A stretch of DNA of 64,000 bases from Ensifer sp. LC11 (GTDB lineage Bacteria > Pseudomonadota > Alphaproteobacteria > Rhizobiales > Rhizobiaceae), in the NCBI RefSeq assembly GCF_001695835.1, contig NZ_MBSO01000073.1, positions 124,001 to 188,000 of the forward strand, in the 5' to 3' direction. Of the stretch, positions 46,429 to 53,141 are shown in pieces. The position numbers and the translations under genes are program-made. The notes beneath the pieces are model-generated. The model saw only the letters and a list, made by a program, of their open reading frames with translations, searched no databases and was not told where the DNA came from. How positions within the stretch are numbered: the stretch's first letter is position 1; every line of letters begins with the position of its first letter.

Positions 46429-47535
46429 ATGACCGAAACATCCCCGCAGAAGCCGATCCCCGTCACCGTGCTCACCGGCTATCTCGGCGCCGGCAAGACA
46501 ACGCTTTTGAACCGCATCCTCAGCGAGAACCATGGCCGCAAATACGCGGTCATCGTCAACGAGTTCGGCGAGATCGGCATCGACAACGACCTGATCGTGG
46601 AATCCGACGAGGAAATCTACGAGATGAACAACGGCTGCGTCTGCTGCACCGTGCGCGGCGACCTGATCCGCGTTGTGGAGGGCCTGATGCGCCGCCCCGG
46701 CCGCTTCGATGCGATCATCGTCGAGACCACCGGCCTTGCCGATCCGGTGCCGGTCGCCCAGACCTTCTTCATGGACGACGACGTGCGCGCCAAGACCGAG
46801 CTCGATGCCGTCGTTGCGCTGGTCGACGCCAAGCATCTGCCGCTGCGCCTGAAAGACAGCCGCGAGGCCGAAGACCAGATCGCCTTTGCCGATGTCGTGC
46901 TGCTCAACAAGACCGACCTCGTCACGCCCGAGGAGCTGGAGCGCATCGAAGCGACCGTGCGCGTCATCAATCCGTCGGCCCGCATCTACCGTACGCAGCG
47001 CTCGGACATCGATCTCGCCAAGGTTCTAGACCAGGGTGCCTTCAACCTCGAAAGGGCGCTCGAAAACGATCCGCATTTCCTCGACCAGGACGATCACGAC
47101 CATGATCACGTCTGCGGCCCGGACTGCGGTCACGACCATCACCACCACCATGATCACGATCATCATGACCACGATCACGATCACGATCACGACCATCATC
47201 ATCACCACGATGCCCCCTCGCCGATCCACGATGTGACGGTGCAGTCGATCTCGCTGCGCGGCGGCGAGATGAACCCGGACCGCTTCTTCCCCTGGATCCA
47301 GAAGATCACCCAGACGGACGGCCCGAACATCCTGCGCCTGAAGGGCATCATCGCCTTTGCGGGTGACGCTGAGCGCTACGTCGTCCAGGGCGTGCACATG
47401 ATCATCGAAGGCGATCACCAGCGCGCCTGGAAGGACGGCGAGAAGCGCGAGAGCCGTCTCGTCTTCATCGGCCGCGATCTCGACCGCGAGAAGCTCGAGC
47501 GTACGTTCAAAGCCTGCGAGGCGCAGCCGAACTGA
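46429..47535 (+). CDS. COG0523/CobW-type GTPase metallochaperone with His-rich loop
   Basis: A 368-residue GTPase. The P-loop is 'GYLGAGKTTLLNR' (residues 17-29), the metal-binding CxCC motif is at Cys70-Val-Cys72-Cys73 ('NNGCVCCT'), Walker B is 'ETTGLADP', and 'NKTDL' gives guanine specificity. Residues about 220-263 are a long Asp/His-rich stretch, then the CobW C-terminal domain. Such proteins insert or deliver zinc (or cobalt) to target enzymes. It overlaps the next gene by one base (TGATG). No clear Zur box is seen upstream. Confidence 0.92.
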   Translation: MTETSPQKPIPVTVLTGYLGAGKTTLLNRILSENHGRKYAVIVNEFGEIGIDNDLIVESDEEIYEMNNGCVCCTVRGDLIRVVEGLMRRPGRFDAIIVETTGLADPVPVAQTFFMDDDVRAKTELDAVVALVDAKHLPLRLKDSREAEDQIAFADVVLLNKTDLVTPEELERIEATVRVINPSARIYRTQRSDIDLAKVLDQGAFNLERALENDPHFLDQDDHDHDHVCGPDCGHDHHHHHDHDHHDHDHDHDHDHHHHHDAPSPIHDVTVQSISLRGGEMNPDRFFPWIQKITQTDGPNILRLKGIIAFAGDAERYVVQGVHMIIEGDHQRAWKDGEKRESRLVFIGRDLDREKLERTFKACEAQPN

Positions 47536-48524
47536 TGCCGACTGTCGCTCCCCTCGATCTCGAAGGTCACGTCGTCGGCGTGGCCTTTCTCAAAGGTGTC
47601 CCCTTCTTCGCTGAAGCCACCGGTGCCATCCACCGCCTCGACCTTGGCCACAAGACGACGGAGGTCCATGAGGGCCTCTTGTCGCTCGTCGTCGACGACG
47701 CGAACGACACGCTGCTGACCGGCGGCGAAGACGGCAAGGTCATGCGCACGTCCGCGGACGGGACCACCGTGCTGGTGGCCGAAGCGCCGCGCAAGTGGAT
47801 TGCCCAGGTTGCCGCCGGTCCGCAAGGGTCTGTTGGTTATGCCTATGGCAAGACCACCCATGTGCGGCTCGCCGACGGCACCACAAAGGAATTCGCCGAG
47901 GAACGTACGGTCGAGGGCCTCGCCTTTGCGCCGAAAGGCCTTCGCGTCGCTGCAGCGCGCTACAACGGCGTGTCGATGCATTGGGTCGGCACATCCGGTC
48001 AGCCGATCGATCTTGATTGGAAGGGTGCCCACACCGGCGTCACCTTCTCGCCCGATGGCCGATTCCTCGTCACCACGATGCAGGAAAACGCGCTGCATGG
48101 CTGGAAGCTCGATGCCAAGCCCGGCGCCGAAGCGCGCCACATGCGCATGACCGGCTACCCGGCGAAGGTGAAGTCGCTCTCCTGGTCGGCCAAGGGCAAG
48201 TGGCTTGCCTCGTCAGGCGCACCGGCCGCCATCGTCTGGCCCTTCCAGGGCAAGGACGGGCCGATGGGCAAGGCGCCGCTCGAACTCGGCACCCGCGCCG
48301 ACATCATGGTGACCGCCGTCTGCTGCCACCCGGCCGAAGACATCGTCGCCATCGGCTATCAGGACGGCATGATCCTCGGTGCGCGCTTTGCCGACAGCAA
48401 GGAGGTGCTTTTGCGCCGCCCCGGCAAGGGCGCGATCACCGCCATGGCATGGAACAAGGATGGCCGCCAGCTCGCCTTCGGCTCGGCCGCGGGCGACTGC
48501 GGCGTCGTCGATATCGCCGGATAA
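47535..48524 (+). CDS. WD40-repeat protein coupled to the GTPase gene
   Basis: A 329-residue protein with about seven WD40-like blades ('LLSLVVDDANDTLLTGGEDGKVMRTSADG', 'GVTFSPDGRFLVTTMQENALHGWKLD', 'ITAMAWNKDGRQLAFGSAAGDCGVVD'). It has no signal peptide. Its ATG overlaps the stop of the COG0523 gene, and it lies 10 bp before the cysE-type gene, so all three are co-translated. WD40 proteins serve as scaffolds; a link to metal delivery is inferred from this coupling. Confidence 0.87.
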   Translation: MPTVAPLDLEGHVVGVAFLKGVPFFAEATGAIHRLDLGHKTTEVHEGLLSLVVDDANDTLLTGGEDGKVMRTSADGTTVLVAEAPRKWIAQVAAGPQGSVGYAYGKTTHVRLADGTTKEFAEERTVEGLAFAPKGLRVAAARYNGVSMHWVGTSGQPIDLDWKGAHTGVTFSPDGRFLVTTMQENALHGWKLDAKPGAEARHMRMTGYPAKVKSLSWSAKGKWLASSGAPAAIVWPFQGKDGPMGKAPLELGTRADIMVTAVCCHPAEDIVAIGYQDGMILGARFADSKEVLLRRPGKGAITAMAWNKDGRQLAFGSAAGDCGVVDIAG

Positions 48525-50697: not shown

Positions 50698-51885
50698 TCA
50701 GATCTTCACCAGCGCGGCGGTCAGATACATGAAGGCGGCGCCCGCGGCGAGCCCGGCCATGACGGGAGGCGTCAGGAAGACATCACCCCGCCGGTCGCTC
50801 TGGCGCATCAGGTAGGCACCCACCTCGACGATCACCTGCAGGATCGCGCCCGCCCCGACGGCAAGCGCCAGCGCCGACCATTGCGCCGAGGTCGCGAGAC
50901 TGCCGAGCCACATGCCGATCACGGCAGGCCCGCCGGCAAGCAGTGTGAGCCCGACGAAGACCCACAGCGGCGGCCGCTTTTTCAGGATCGGAGCGGCAAT
51001 GCCGATGCCTTCGGTGACATTGTGGAGCGCAAAGCCGAGCACGAGAAAGGTGCCGAGCCCCGCCGAGCCGGCCGCAAAGGCCGCGCCGATCGCCAGCCCC
51101 TCGCCGAGATTGTGCAGGCCGATCCCGAACGCGATATAGGTGGACAGCGCCAGACCCGTCGGCGCACCGCTTCGCCGGCCAATTGCCATCAGCATCAGGA
51201 AGCTGCCGAGTCCCGCCAACACCACCATGACCGGCCCCTGGAAGATCGCCGCCGCCTCTCCGGCAAGCTCGAGCGCCTCGCCGCTCGCATCGACCAGCAG
51301 AAAACCGAGCAGGCCGATCGTCAGCGATAGCAGGAAGGCCATGCCGTCGCGACCGACGCCGCGCAGCACCGGGTAGAACATCAGCCCCACGGCCACCGGC
51401 AGAACGCCGACGATGACGCCGACCAGAGCCTGCAGCAGCAATTGCCCTGATGTCGCCTGCGGCGTCGGTACGGCAACGGCAATGTCATGGGCGAAGGTCG
51501 CGCCGGTGTTCGTGACAATCTTCAGGGCATGCGCCTCGCCGAGCATCCACGGGAAGGGCAGGTTCAGCCATGCCGCCTTGCCCCGCGCGATCGGACCCGG
51601 CGGATCCTGGGTGAACTGCCAGTAGGCATCATCCACCTGAACCTGCGCCACGGTCATCGGTTCCGAACCGCCGGCGCGAACCAGCAGACGAAGGCCGCCG
51701 TCGTCAAGCACGGTTCGCTCGAAGGTCAGATTTTCGATCGGTGGCGCACCGTTGCGGAAACCTGAAAGCGGATCAGTCGACAGGATCCAGGTAACGGCGA
51801 TACCAAAGGCCAGCAGCGGTAGCGCCAGCCATACCAGATTGGTCCTTGCCGCGCGGATCGCGGTCCTCGGCAGCATCTCGTTCAT
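50698..51885 (-). CDS. ZIP-family metal transporter with an N-terminal extracytoplasmic domain
   Basis: A 395-residue protein. One membrane helix (residues 17-34) is followed by about 110 residues of soluble beta-type sequence (about 40-150), then the eight-helix ZIP core. ZIP metal-binding motifs are visible as 'GIGLHNLGEGLAIGAAFAAG' and 'ALHNVTEGIGIA'. ZIP proteins import Zn, Fe or Mn. The extra N-terminal domain, predicted to face the periplasm, is unusual. The ATG overlaps the stop of the multicopper oxidase gene (ATGA), so the two are translationally coupled and likely work together. Confidence 0.9.
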   Translation of the reverse strand: MNEMLPRTAIRAARTNLVWLALPLLAFGIAVTWILSTDPLSGFRNGAPPIENLTFERTVLDDGGLRLLVRAGGSEPMTVAQVQVDDAYWQFTQDPPGPIARGKAAWLNLPFPWMLGEAHALKIVTNTGATFAHDIAVAVPTPQATSGQLLLQALVGVIVGVLPVAVGLMFYPVLRGVGRDGMAFLLSLTIGLLGFLLVDASGEALELAGEAAAIFQGPVMVVLAGLGSFLMLMAIGRRSGAPTGLALSTYIAFGIGLHNLGEGLAIGAAFAAGSAGLGTFLVLGFALHNVTEGIGIAAPILKKRPPLWVFVGLTLLAGGPAVIGMWLGSLATSAQWSALALAVGAGAILQVIVEVGAYLMRQSDRRGDVFLTPPVMAGLAAGAAFMYLTAALVKI

Positions 51886-53009
51886 GCCAGCGCCTCCACA
51901 ACGTCGAACATGCCGACCCATCCCAGTTCGGTAAACTCGGTCTGGTGCGGATGGAACATGTAAAGGCCGGGTTCATGCTCAGCGAAGGTGAACTCCAGAA
52001 TGCCGCGTTGCGCCTGGCATTGGGTGATGAGATCGACGGTCTTCAGCGTTGGCGTCAGCGTCGTTCCCTGGTCGTAGTAGTCGAAGAAATTGGCGTGCAG
52101 ATGGAAGGAGTTGATCGGGTCGAACTCGATGACGTTGATCAGGTAGACACGCACCGGCTTGTCGCGCACGATCCGGATCGGCCGCTTCATGAAGGCATGC
52201 GCGACGGTGTTGACCGCGTAGATCTCGTTTTCGGCATCGAAGTTGGTGTCGAAGGCGTTCATCACCATCACAAGCTCCTGCCAACCGGCATTTTCGGGCG
52301 AGCCGAGCAGCCTGGAACGGGCGACGTCGGCATGTTCCGGCCGACGCTCCGGGTCGGGGTCGATGACGAAGGCGCCGTACATGCCCTTGTGGATGTGCCG
52401 GCGCAGCGGCATGGCGTGGCAATGATAGAGGTGACAGCCGAAGGGCTTGGCATCGAACTCGTAGACGAACTCGTCGCCCGGGTCGACCATGCCGGCGCCG
52501 GGCACGCCATCCATGCGCGCTGCGTGAATGCCATGGAAATGGATCGAATGCGGGTGTGACGCGTAGTTGCGGAATACGATCCTGAGCCGCTCGCCTTCCT
52601 TGGCTCTCAGAGCCGGCCCCGGTACCCGACCATTGTAGGTCCAGGCGGGAAACTTGATGCCGGGCGCAATCTCGATCTCGCGATCCTCGGCCGTTATTTC
52701 GAAGGTCCGCAGCGTCCGCCCATCGGGGAGCGTCGACACTGTCCCCGTATCCCAGTCGGTCAGCATGTCCGTCGGGTCGAAGCCGTTGACGGCGCTGTCG
52801 ACATCGCCAACGGTCATCATCGCGCCATGCCCCATCGCGGGCATCGGGTCTGCAGCAGCCGCCCCCGCCTGCGCGCCGTGGCCGCCATGGGGCGCCGGCT
52901 GCTGCCCGAGCGCGCCGCTGGTGCAGATGGCCGTTCCACCCGCCGCCGCCAGCCCGCCCATCAGGAGACTGCGCCGTCGCAGCAGGTCCTGTCCTGTCCC
53001 CTTACTCAT
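51882..53009 (-). CDS. Two-domain multicopper oxidase, Tat-exported
   Basis: A 375-residue oxidase with a twin-arginine signal ('RRRSLLMGGLAAAGG', residues 11-25). All eight trinuclear-copper histidines can be seen as four pairs: His157/159, His196/198 (HCH), His303/305 and His353/355. The only type 1 copper site is in domain 1, with Cys197 between the HCH histidines, His205 and Met210; domain 2 lacks one, which fits the type C two-domain class. It oxidises a metal or phenol with O2 in the periplasm. It is the first gene of the MCO-ZIP operon, behind two Fur/Mur-type boxes. An in-frame start at 53060 is less likely. Confidence 0.92.
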   Translation of the reverse strand: MSKGTGQDLLRRRSLLMGGLAAAGGTAICTSGALGQQPAPHGGHGAQAGAAAADPMPAMGHGAMMTVGDVDSAVNGFDPTDMLTDWDTGTVSTLPDGRTLRTFEITAEDREIEIAPGIKFPAWTYNGRVPGPALRAKEGERLRIVFRNYASHPHSIHFHGIHAARMDGVPGAGMVDPGDEFVYEFDAKPFGCHLYHCHAMPLRRHIHKGMYGAFVIDPDPERRPEHADVARSRLLGSPENAGWQELVMVMNAFDTNFDAENEIYAVNTVAHAFMKRPIRIVRDKPVRVYLINVIEFDPINSFHLHANFFDYYDQGTTLTPTLKTVDLITQCQAQRGILEFTFAEHEPGLYMFHPHQTEFTELGWVGMFDVVEALA

Positions 53010-53092
53010 CCTCGACCCTTTGCTCGATCGGCTTTTCGCGATCGGGTAACGCCCGCGCACGCGATTGCGCGCGACCGGTCACGTATCGTTTT

Positions 53093-53107
53093 TGCAAATC
53101 ATTCGCA
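53093..53107. promoter_or_regulatory. Fur/Mur-type box 1 upstream of the multicopper oxidase gene
   Basis: TGCAAATCATTCGCA is a 7-1-7 dyad with one mismatch, the pattern of Fur-family boxes. It is 84 bp upstream of the oxidase start. In rhizobia the Fur homologue is often the manganese regulator Mur, so the inducing metal is uncertain. Confidence 0.7.
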
Positions 53108-53126
53108 TCTACATGAATAATGCAAA

Positions 53127-53141
53127 TGCAACTCATTCGCA
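53127..53141. promoter_or_regulatory. Fur/Mur-type box 2 upstream of the multicopper oxidase gene
   Basis: TGCAACTCATTCGCA repeats the 7-1-7 dyad of box 1, 34 bp further upstream. The two copies match each other at 14 of 15 positions, which supports a real regulatory pair. Confidence 0.65.

Follow-up and report, generated by a model that had tools for sequence, protein, structure and literature searches.

Which metal is served by an operon that joins an exported multicopper oxidase (MCO) to a metal permease of the ZIP family, and what would the oxidase contribute? The question is raised by two adjacent genes of Ensifer sp. LC11, situated in the stretch of 64,000 nucleotides analysed here (contig NZ_MBSO01000073.1, positions 124,001 to 188,000 of the forward strand; "the window" throughout). 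We consider it fairly likely that the pair is a metal acquisition operon induced by manganese starvation, in which the ZIP protein carries Mn(II) and the oxidase assists, and the pair is probably a little-known route of manganese uptake. This reading starts from the predicted genes with their intact copper ligands, from their close pairing, from boxes resembling those at mur-sit and MntE-like sites, and from two kinds of manganese-regulator signal that replace each other among relatives. The regulatory signals are well supported, the transport chemistry being a proposal.

Promoter Dyads Resembling Mur Boxes

Upstream of the oxidase gene lie two near-identical dyads, TGCAAATCATTCGCA (box 1) and TGCAACTCATTCGCA (box 2), whose start positions are 34 bp apart, just as a reading of the sequence alone had described them (Table 1). 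The exact pattern TGCRAMTNATTYGCA occurs twice in the 6.2-Mb genome, both times at this promoter; with one mismatch allowed, three further places are found, one of them a CDF promoter and two of them chance-like. A looser count, with two mismatches and in the window alone, gave five matches and was not above chance (23 of 100 shuffles were as high), so that weight was placed on the exactness, pairing, and conservation of the dyads. A matrix derived from six sites outside the MCO operon gave the two dyads the highest scores in the window (23.0 and 22.2), the genome's own sit-mur site scoring lower (18.4). The close relatives L129, L130, and L157 have box 2 unchanged and still show a dyad at box 1, though with substitutions, and the flanks have diverged.

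The same motif was found elsewhere in the LC11 genome. One copy lies between a divergently oriented gene of the FUR family, which we read as mur, and a SitA-like gene that matched a Mn/Fe binding protein best among the NCBIfam models, though below cut-off. Another copy, on contig C12 of this genome (G000, L047:4154-4178), precedes a CDF gene for which the NCBIfam model of the manganese exporter MntE fitted best, again below cut-off. LC11 has two further FUR-family genes, one for Irr (above cut-off) and one for a Zur-like protein (below cut-off). Among relatives, G007, G031, G064, G067, and G068 carry the extended box 118-138 bp before a FUR domain, and G143 carries it before sitA, near mur. 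In Rhizobium leguminosarum, Mur responds to manganese by repressing sitABCD and mntH (PMC5575495; this and the other PMC sources are cited from the portions of their text available to us). Because the motif stands at mur-sit in the own genome and in relatives, and Mur is manganese-responsive in R. leguminosarum, the dyads look like manganese (Mur) boxes and not like iron Fur boxes. Control by Fur or Mur had been proposed from the sequence alone; the Fur-superfamily nature of the boxes and their conservation bear this out, but the evidence leads away from iron and points to manganese, through Mur here and MntR in many relatives.

Two side observations concern the wider reach of such boxes. Their presence before an MntE-like exporter gene suggests that Mur may touch efflux too and is perhaps not a simple repressor, and in G090 (L113:3656-3715) a double Mur-like box precedes a ZnuA-family binding-protein gene in a metal ABC operon identified by Pfam.

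Mur-Type and MntR-Type Signals among Relatives

A scan of named genomes revealed at least 572 stretches encoding a relative, of which the best 80 were kept as named loci and the promoters of 78 were scored, L167 and L178 being left out. The threshold of the Mur matrix set at 99% of shuffles was exceeded by 28 of the 78 promoters, with about 0.8 expected, in a test not fully blind, as the pattern used to collect the six non-MCO sites behind the matrix was itself modelled on MCO promoters. A second signal, the MntR core ATAGC-N4-GCTAT (one mismatch allowed), is held by 26 of the 78 compared with 0.5% of shuffles; this core was chosen after such promoters had been seen, which makes the test likewise not fully blind. 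Only a single promoter displayed both signals. Altogether 29 promoters were labelled Mur (L129 by hand, from the comparison of its boxes with those of close relatives), 43 MntR (25 by the core and 18 by an adjacent mntR alone), and six neither. Homologues of mntR lie upstream of the MCO gene in 33 of the 80 named loci, and one mntR neighbour, scanned from the first set, is an MntR equivalog (245.6 bits, cut-off 153); a Mur homologue was found in the fetched flanks of 10 of the 80, two of them partial (L163 and L171). The tree of MCO plus ZIP, a quick one with some long branches, demands five changes between Mur and MntR.

The manganese sensors of the hosts were surveyed in the genome of LC11 and in those of 50 of the 78 labelled loci, picked for spread. 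MntR above the curated cut-off was present in 22 of 22 MntR-type and 2 of 23 Mur-type genomes (Fisher p 7e-11, kinship ignored), whereby five of the 22 had been labelled by adjacent mntR alone and their label is partly the gene tested. Homologues of the LC11 Mur (E <= 1e-18) occur in all 23 Mur-type and in 12 of the 22 MntR-type genomes, and among the five genomes without a promoter label, one has MntR and four are without it. The genome of the window itself has Mur and no MntR over the cut-off. Across the surveyed genomes, the type of box thus tracks the manganese sensor of the host. As a separate observation, G128 (L036:8127-8555, the region of L188) carries a FUR-family gene behind mntR at the MCO-ZIP operon, with iron Fur as its best model at 68 bits, below cut-off.

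Distribution of the Pair

Conserved MCO-ZIP pairs outside the strain, which had been suggested as a check, are plentiful. Of the 151 genomes of the family, 18 carry a full ZIP homologue, fragments left aside, and in every one of the 18 the MCO gene is directly 5' of it; the same order was seen in 80 of 80 named loci, in two of which (L167 and L178) the MCO gene was located by tblastn and in one of which (L167) it is partial at a contig end. A phylum-wide search of 398 genomes, with at most four candidates scored per genome, gave ZIP matches in five, including one of only 178 residues (G321) whose genome has no listed MCO match. MCO matches were found in 56 of the 398, and four of these are close to full length at more than 60% identity, all four adjoining a ZIP gene. 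In G031, a P-type ATPase gene is followed by a broken second copy of the ZIP gene, of the same family (L112:6949-7717), and about 2.5 kb upstream of this copy lies a Mur homologue (L112:3922-4389).

Plasmid records extended this range. The ZIP gene was found in 147 records, with Sinorhizobium fredii NGR234 among the matches, of which 74 were typed conjugative, and the MCO gene in 144 with the same leading genera; taxa with the pair comprise Alphaproteobacteria, cyanobacteria, Deinococcus, Rhodococcus, Nocardia, Arthrobacter, Bacillaceae, and haloarchaea, the pair thus being present also in Actinomycetota and Bacillota. We opened 23 plasmid regions, a non-random choice made for spread, 22 of them annotated, and aligned 19 of the 22 with the pair of the window. 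The ZIP gene is the next gene to the MCO gene in 21 of the 22. In a plasmid of Paroceanicella profunda (L266), genes for TniQ, TniB, and a Mu-type transposase stand between the MCO gene and the metal-transporter gene, unlike in the similar Pseudosulfitobacter locus L265, where the pair is intact. In 12 of the 22 annotated regions, a gene of the DtxR/MntR family adjoins the MCO gene or is separated from it by a single gene; MntR was the best model for all eight such DtxR-family neighbours that were scanned, and the two from Alphaproteobacteria score above the MntR cut-offs.

Some of the neighbours 3' of the ZIP gene deserve mention in their own right. A Rieske (2Fe-2S) gene was seen in two of four cyanobacterial and three of four Nocardiaceae regions (L245, L246, L250, L251, and L264) and a plastocyanin-like gene in four of five haloarchaeal ones (L252, L255, L261, and L262), the product of either being a possible redox partner of the oxidase. 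Both Bacillaceae plasmids (L258 and L259) have a TatA-family gene directly 3' of the ZIP gene, as if the cassette brought export help for an oxidase that depends on twin-arginine translocation (Tat).

The Oxidase and the Transporter

The open reading frame of the MCO runs on the minus strand from an ATG at 53009 to a stop at 51882, and an in-frame GTG at 53060 offers an alternative start giving 392 amino acids. Its N-terminus displays the twin-arginine stretch RRRSLLMGG, and Pfam matched Cu-oxidase_3 and Cu-oxidase_2. The two cupredoxin domains provide the eight histidines of the type 2/type 3 (T2/T3) copper site (H157, 159, 196, 198, 303, 305, 353, and 355), and domain 1 the type 1 (T1) ligands H152, C197, and H205 with M210 in the axial position, all roles being assigned by motif order, without a structure. 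In an alignment of the window MCO with 76 homologues, the eight histidines as well as H152, C197, and H205 are invariant in 77 of 77 sequences; M210 is kept in 73 and replaced by Leu in four. Across phyla (the window and 19 plasmid sequences), the eight histidines, Cys197, and His205 were found in 20 of 20 and His152 in 19, the axial ligand being Met in ten and Leu in ten. Judged by these ligands, the MCO is of the two-domain type, with T1 copper in domain 1 and a trinuclear site common to both domains, a plan that we take to be the one called "type C". The open reading frame, the Pfam domains, and the ligands thus agree with the Tat-type two-domain oxidase read from the sequence alone, and the overlap of the two genes by ATGA is likewise where it had been seen. 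A copper nitrite reductase identity was rejected at 83.3 bits, the cut-off of the NCBIfam model Cu_nitrite_red being 296.3.

For the permease, Pfam ZIP scored 35.2 bits in one scan and 33.2 in another; since these values straddle the cut-off of 35.1, the protein is regarded as a divergent member. Its AlphaFold2 model, with a mean predicted local distance difference test (pLDDT) score of 84, shows an N-terminal helix, a beta domain, and eight membrane helices, and the ten best Foldseek matches are all solved BbZIP structures. With its modelled eight-helix fold and the HNxxEG-type motifs predicted in transmembrane helices 4 and 5 (TM4 and TM5), the transporter belongs to the ZIP (SLC39) family. 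The cross-phylum ZIP alignment, again of the window and 19 others, revealed H258, N259, E262, N289, and E292 in 20 of 20 and H288 in 18. The beta domain corresponds to the extra extracytoplasmic domain that had been claimed for this protein, and its Trp113 is invariant in all 20; a fold search with it gave weak matches only (archaellum FlaF/FlaG, the DsbD N-terminal domain, PCuAC, and CopC), from which no function was read. The nearest named ZIP relatives among the matches listed are from Ensifer, at 92 and 89% identity.

About 2 kb from the pair, at 46429-48524 of the window, a gene for a CobW-family GTPase with a long histidine run overlaps a WD40-repeat gene. The NCBIfam matches of the GTPase, the zinc chaperone ZigA included, are below cut-off; we regard these two genes as a metal-related pair.

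Table 1. Positions of the operon, its protein features, and its predicted regulatory boxes in the window.
Feature	Position	Strand	Basis
Tat-type exported two-domain MCO, 375 amino acids	51882..53009	-	Open reading frame, Pfam, ligand conservation, PDB relatives
HCH...H....M motif of the MCO, residues 196-210 (T3 His, T1 Cys, T3 His, T1 His, T1 Met)	52380..52424	-	By motif
ATGA stop/start overlap of MCO and ZIP	51882..51885	-	Sequence
ZIP-family transporter with N-terminal helix and extracytoplasmic beta domain, 395 amino acids	50698..51885	-	Pfam at cut-off, AlphaFold2, Foldseek
Extra N-terminal helix of ZIP, residues 8-36, probably transmembrane	51778..51864	-	AlphaFold2, low to middling confidence there
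Extracytoplasmic beta domain of ZIP, residues 53-135	51481..51729	-	AlphaFold2, alignment
ZIP TM4 metal motif HNLGEG, residues 258-263	51097..51114	-	Aligned to BbZIP HNLPEG
ZIP TM5 metal motif HNVTEG, residues 288-293	51007..51024	-	Aligned to BbZIP QDVPEG
Mur box 1 (predicted), TGCAAATCATTCGCA	53093..53107		Genome pattern scan, relatives, matrix
Mur box 2 (predicted), TGCAACTCATTCGCA, identical in three close relatives	53127..53141		Genome pattern scan, relatives, matrix

Probable Manganese Acquisition and Its Alternatives

If the boxes are used, the Fur-family repressor Mur, or MntR in many relatives, would sit on them as long as Mn(II) is sufficient and keep the operon shut; once Mn(II) falls, the repression would be relieved and the exported oxidase and the ZIP protein would be made together. 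From the boxes, we regard repression by Mur in vivo as very likely. Import of Mn(II) by the ZIP protein would be the simplest use of manganese-type control, and Mn(II) is, on these signals, the likely ion transported; the mammalian ZIP8 and ZIP14 are known manganese carriers. The oxidase would serve as a periplasmic helper that most likely oxidises competing Fe(II), perhaps Cu(I), and so leaves Mn(II) to a carrier that is itself modestly selective. These two ions are favoured as substrates because Mn(II) is much harder to oxidise than either, and since ZIP carriers are known for divalent metals, the ion oxidised need not be the ion transported, as it would be in the hand-over of metal from oxidase to importer suggested from the sequence alone. 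This role in selectivity is offered tentatively, and the beta domain of the ZIP protein may dock or capture the oxidase or its product. A broader and equally tentative thought is that bacteria and haloarchaea might have in common an unnamed manganese acquisition system, a redox-gated importer whose dedicated MCO docks on the extracytoplasmic domain of the ZIP protein and makes it selective for Mn(II) through the oxidation of rival Fe(II) or Cu(I), or drives the capture of manganese itself, the cassette having been wired repeatedly to the Mur or MntR of its host.

Several observations weigh against manganese acquisition as the function. Within the family, no inverse link between the pair and Nramp was seen, the latter being present in 8 of 18 pair-bearing and 67 of 133 other genomes (p 0.80); a replacement of Nramp/MntH by the pair was rejected on this lack of association. 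Neither a box nor an adjacent mntR was found at the six promoters labelled neither, three of which have a Mur homologue close by, and a Mur box before an exporter-like gene implies that such a box alone does not prove import. The FUR-family gene of LC11 scores 101.5 bits for iron Fur, below the cut-off of 146, and a Mur model is absent from the NCBIfam lists examined; the name "Mur" follows from the place of the gene beside the sit genes and from rhizobial literature, and in non-rhizobial relatives the Mur homologue could sense iron. Outside Alphaproteobacteria, the six scanned DtxR-family neighbours fall below the MntR cut-offs and are thus putative manganese sensors at most; the regulator annotated closest to the pair in two Bacillaceae and in Leptolyngbya belongs to the ArsR family and is not MntR. 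Several plasmid copies lie inside heavy-metal islands with P-type ATPases, PCuAC, CadD, and ArsR, a setting which fits a copper or toxic-metal role, too. Finally, a profile alignment displayed no counterpart in the ZIP protein of the TM6 glutamate that belongs to the second metal site of the binuclear BbZIP centre. The binuclear site is not universal among ZIPs, and the family membership stands without this residue.

The setting of the plasmid copies leads to the first alternative, that of a metal-stress cassette in which the import of manganese, together with oxidation in the periplasm, would shield the cell from Cu, Cd, or peroxide and stress tolerance would be the main role. Metal-resistance genes adjoin plasmid copies and half of the ZIP-bearing plasmid records (74 of 147) were typed conjugative, but the pair in the window is flanked by an MFS gene and a Glyoxalase_8 gene, and the promoter signals are those of manganese sensors; we judge this role to be rather unlikely. 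The same signals would suit a direct coupling, in which Mn(II) is oxidised to Mn(III) in the periplasm and then captured and imported by the beta domain and the ZIP protein as a manganese analogue of Fet3-Ftr1. Mn(II)-oxidising MCOs do exist, for example a three-domain one in Georhizobium (PMC11708043), and one copy of the pair is from Pseudaminobacter manganicus, where the organism's name is the only hint of manganese. As ZIP proteins are known as divalent carriers and Mn(III) is unstable without a chelator, such a coupling seems improbable to us.

A third alternative is the uptake of copper, the MCO oxidising Cu(I) to Cu(II) and the ZIP protein importing Cu(II). It was proposed for the archaeal MCO1 and its neighbouring permease, by analogy with Fet3 and its permease (PMC7785015, PMC7819960), and this pair showed a mild induction at copper limitation, with log2 changes of 0.81 for MCO1 and 1.33 for the permease (PMC7785015, repeated in PMC7819960); copper-related neighbours in some of our plasmid regions point in the same direction. 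Against this, MCO1 patterns in Nitrosopumilus maritimus conflict (PMC7785015), the signals at alphaproteobacterial promoters are those of manganese regulators from two unrelated families, and an MCO, requiring copper itself, would be an odd tool for copper starvation, all of which makes this function unlikely here. Least probable of all is a Fet3-Ftr1-like iron importer under Fur, with a ferroxidase supplying iron to the ZIP protein: the dyad resembles Fur boxes, the nearest regulator family is FUR, and ferroxidases and iron carriers are established among MCOs and ZIPs, but the box-linked FUR-family gene divergent from the sit genes has the arrangement and target of Mur, Mur is manganese-responsive in R. 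leguminosarum (PMC5575495), many relatives have MntR-type signals instead, and the permease is a ZIP and not an FTR1, and with the boxes located at mur-sit in the own genome and in relatives the iron-Fur reading was set aside for Mur.

Should the manganese reading be true, many genomes (80 loci examined, probably several hundred) would hold a route of manganese uptake besides Nramp and ABC transporters, in a pair that tends to be annotated only as "multicopper oxidase" and "metal transporter". Such a route would join oxidation to the import of a divalent metal, and it could explain manganese uptake mediated by ZIP proteins in iron-rich, oxic soil.

Comparison with Known Systems

The combination of an MCO with a ZIP protein had been thought undescribed, and this did not hold. 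In ammonia-oxidising archaea, MCO1 is found beside a zinc/iron (ZIP) permease, as in Nitrososphaera viennensis with NVIE_000600/NVIE_000590 (PMC7785015; the pair is also treated in PMC7819960). In our literature search, with subscription papers outside it, no report linked the pair to Mur, MntR, or manganese, and a manganese-regulated MCO-ZIP operon was not found in the available portions of PMC7785015, PMC7819960, PMC2631029, PMC9240420, PMC11708043, and PMC5575495. The pairing is therefore already in print, for copper and in ammonia-oxidising archaea, and the link to manganese is the new part as far as searched. In both cases, likened here by gene arrangement, a two-domain MCO gene stands beside a ZIP gene; the archaeal pair was proposed for copper with no regulator named in the available text of PMC7785015, whereas that of the window displays Mur/MntR-type signals. 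An MCO of N. maritimus with a cupredoxin (9cck) shares about 31% identity with the window MCO. The manganese reading, if true, would offer a direct way to ask whether the archaeal pair serves copper or manganese.

With the Mur regulon of rhizobia, i.e., sitABCD and mntH, the operon has a box and a predicted repressor of the same kind in common. The known targets there are ABC and Nramp importers, and the available portion of PMC5575495 mentions no multicopper oxidase.

The closest PDB entries to the MCO are 7rab/7rac and 3gdc; a structure model of the MCO was poor (mean pLDDT 59.6) and served only for naming PDB relatives. In the Foldseek alignment, 7rab, titled as a dodecameric MCO from M. 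hydrothermalis, is about 74% and 3gdc about 51% identical to the window MCO, both with a like domain plan; their structures are solved, and the records examined name no substrate. BbZIP has the ZIP core fold and HNxxEG-type TM4/TM5 motifs in common with the window ZIP at about 22-26% identity, but the latter carries Gly/Thr for the motif prolines, is without the TM6 glutamate, and has an extra helix and a beta domain. Fet3-Ftr1 of yeast likewise pairs an MCO with a metal permease. Fet3 has three domains and a membrane anchor, and Ftr1 lies outside the ZIP family, whereas the permease of the window is, by its modelled fold and motifs, a ZIP and not of the FTR1 type, and the signals at the promoter are those for manganese.

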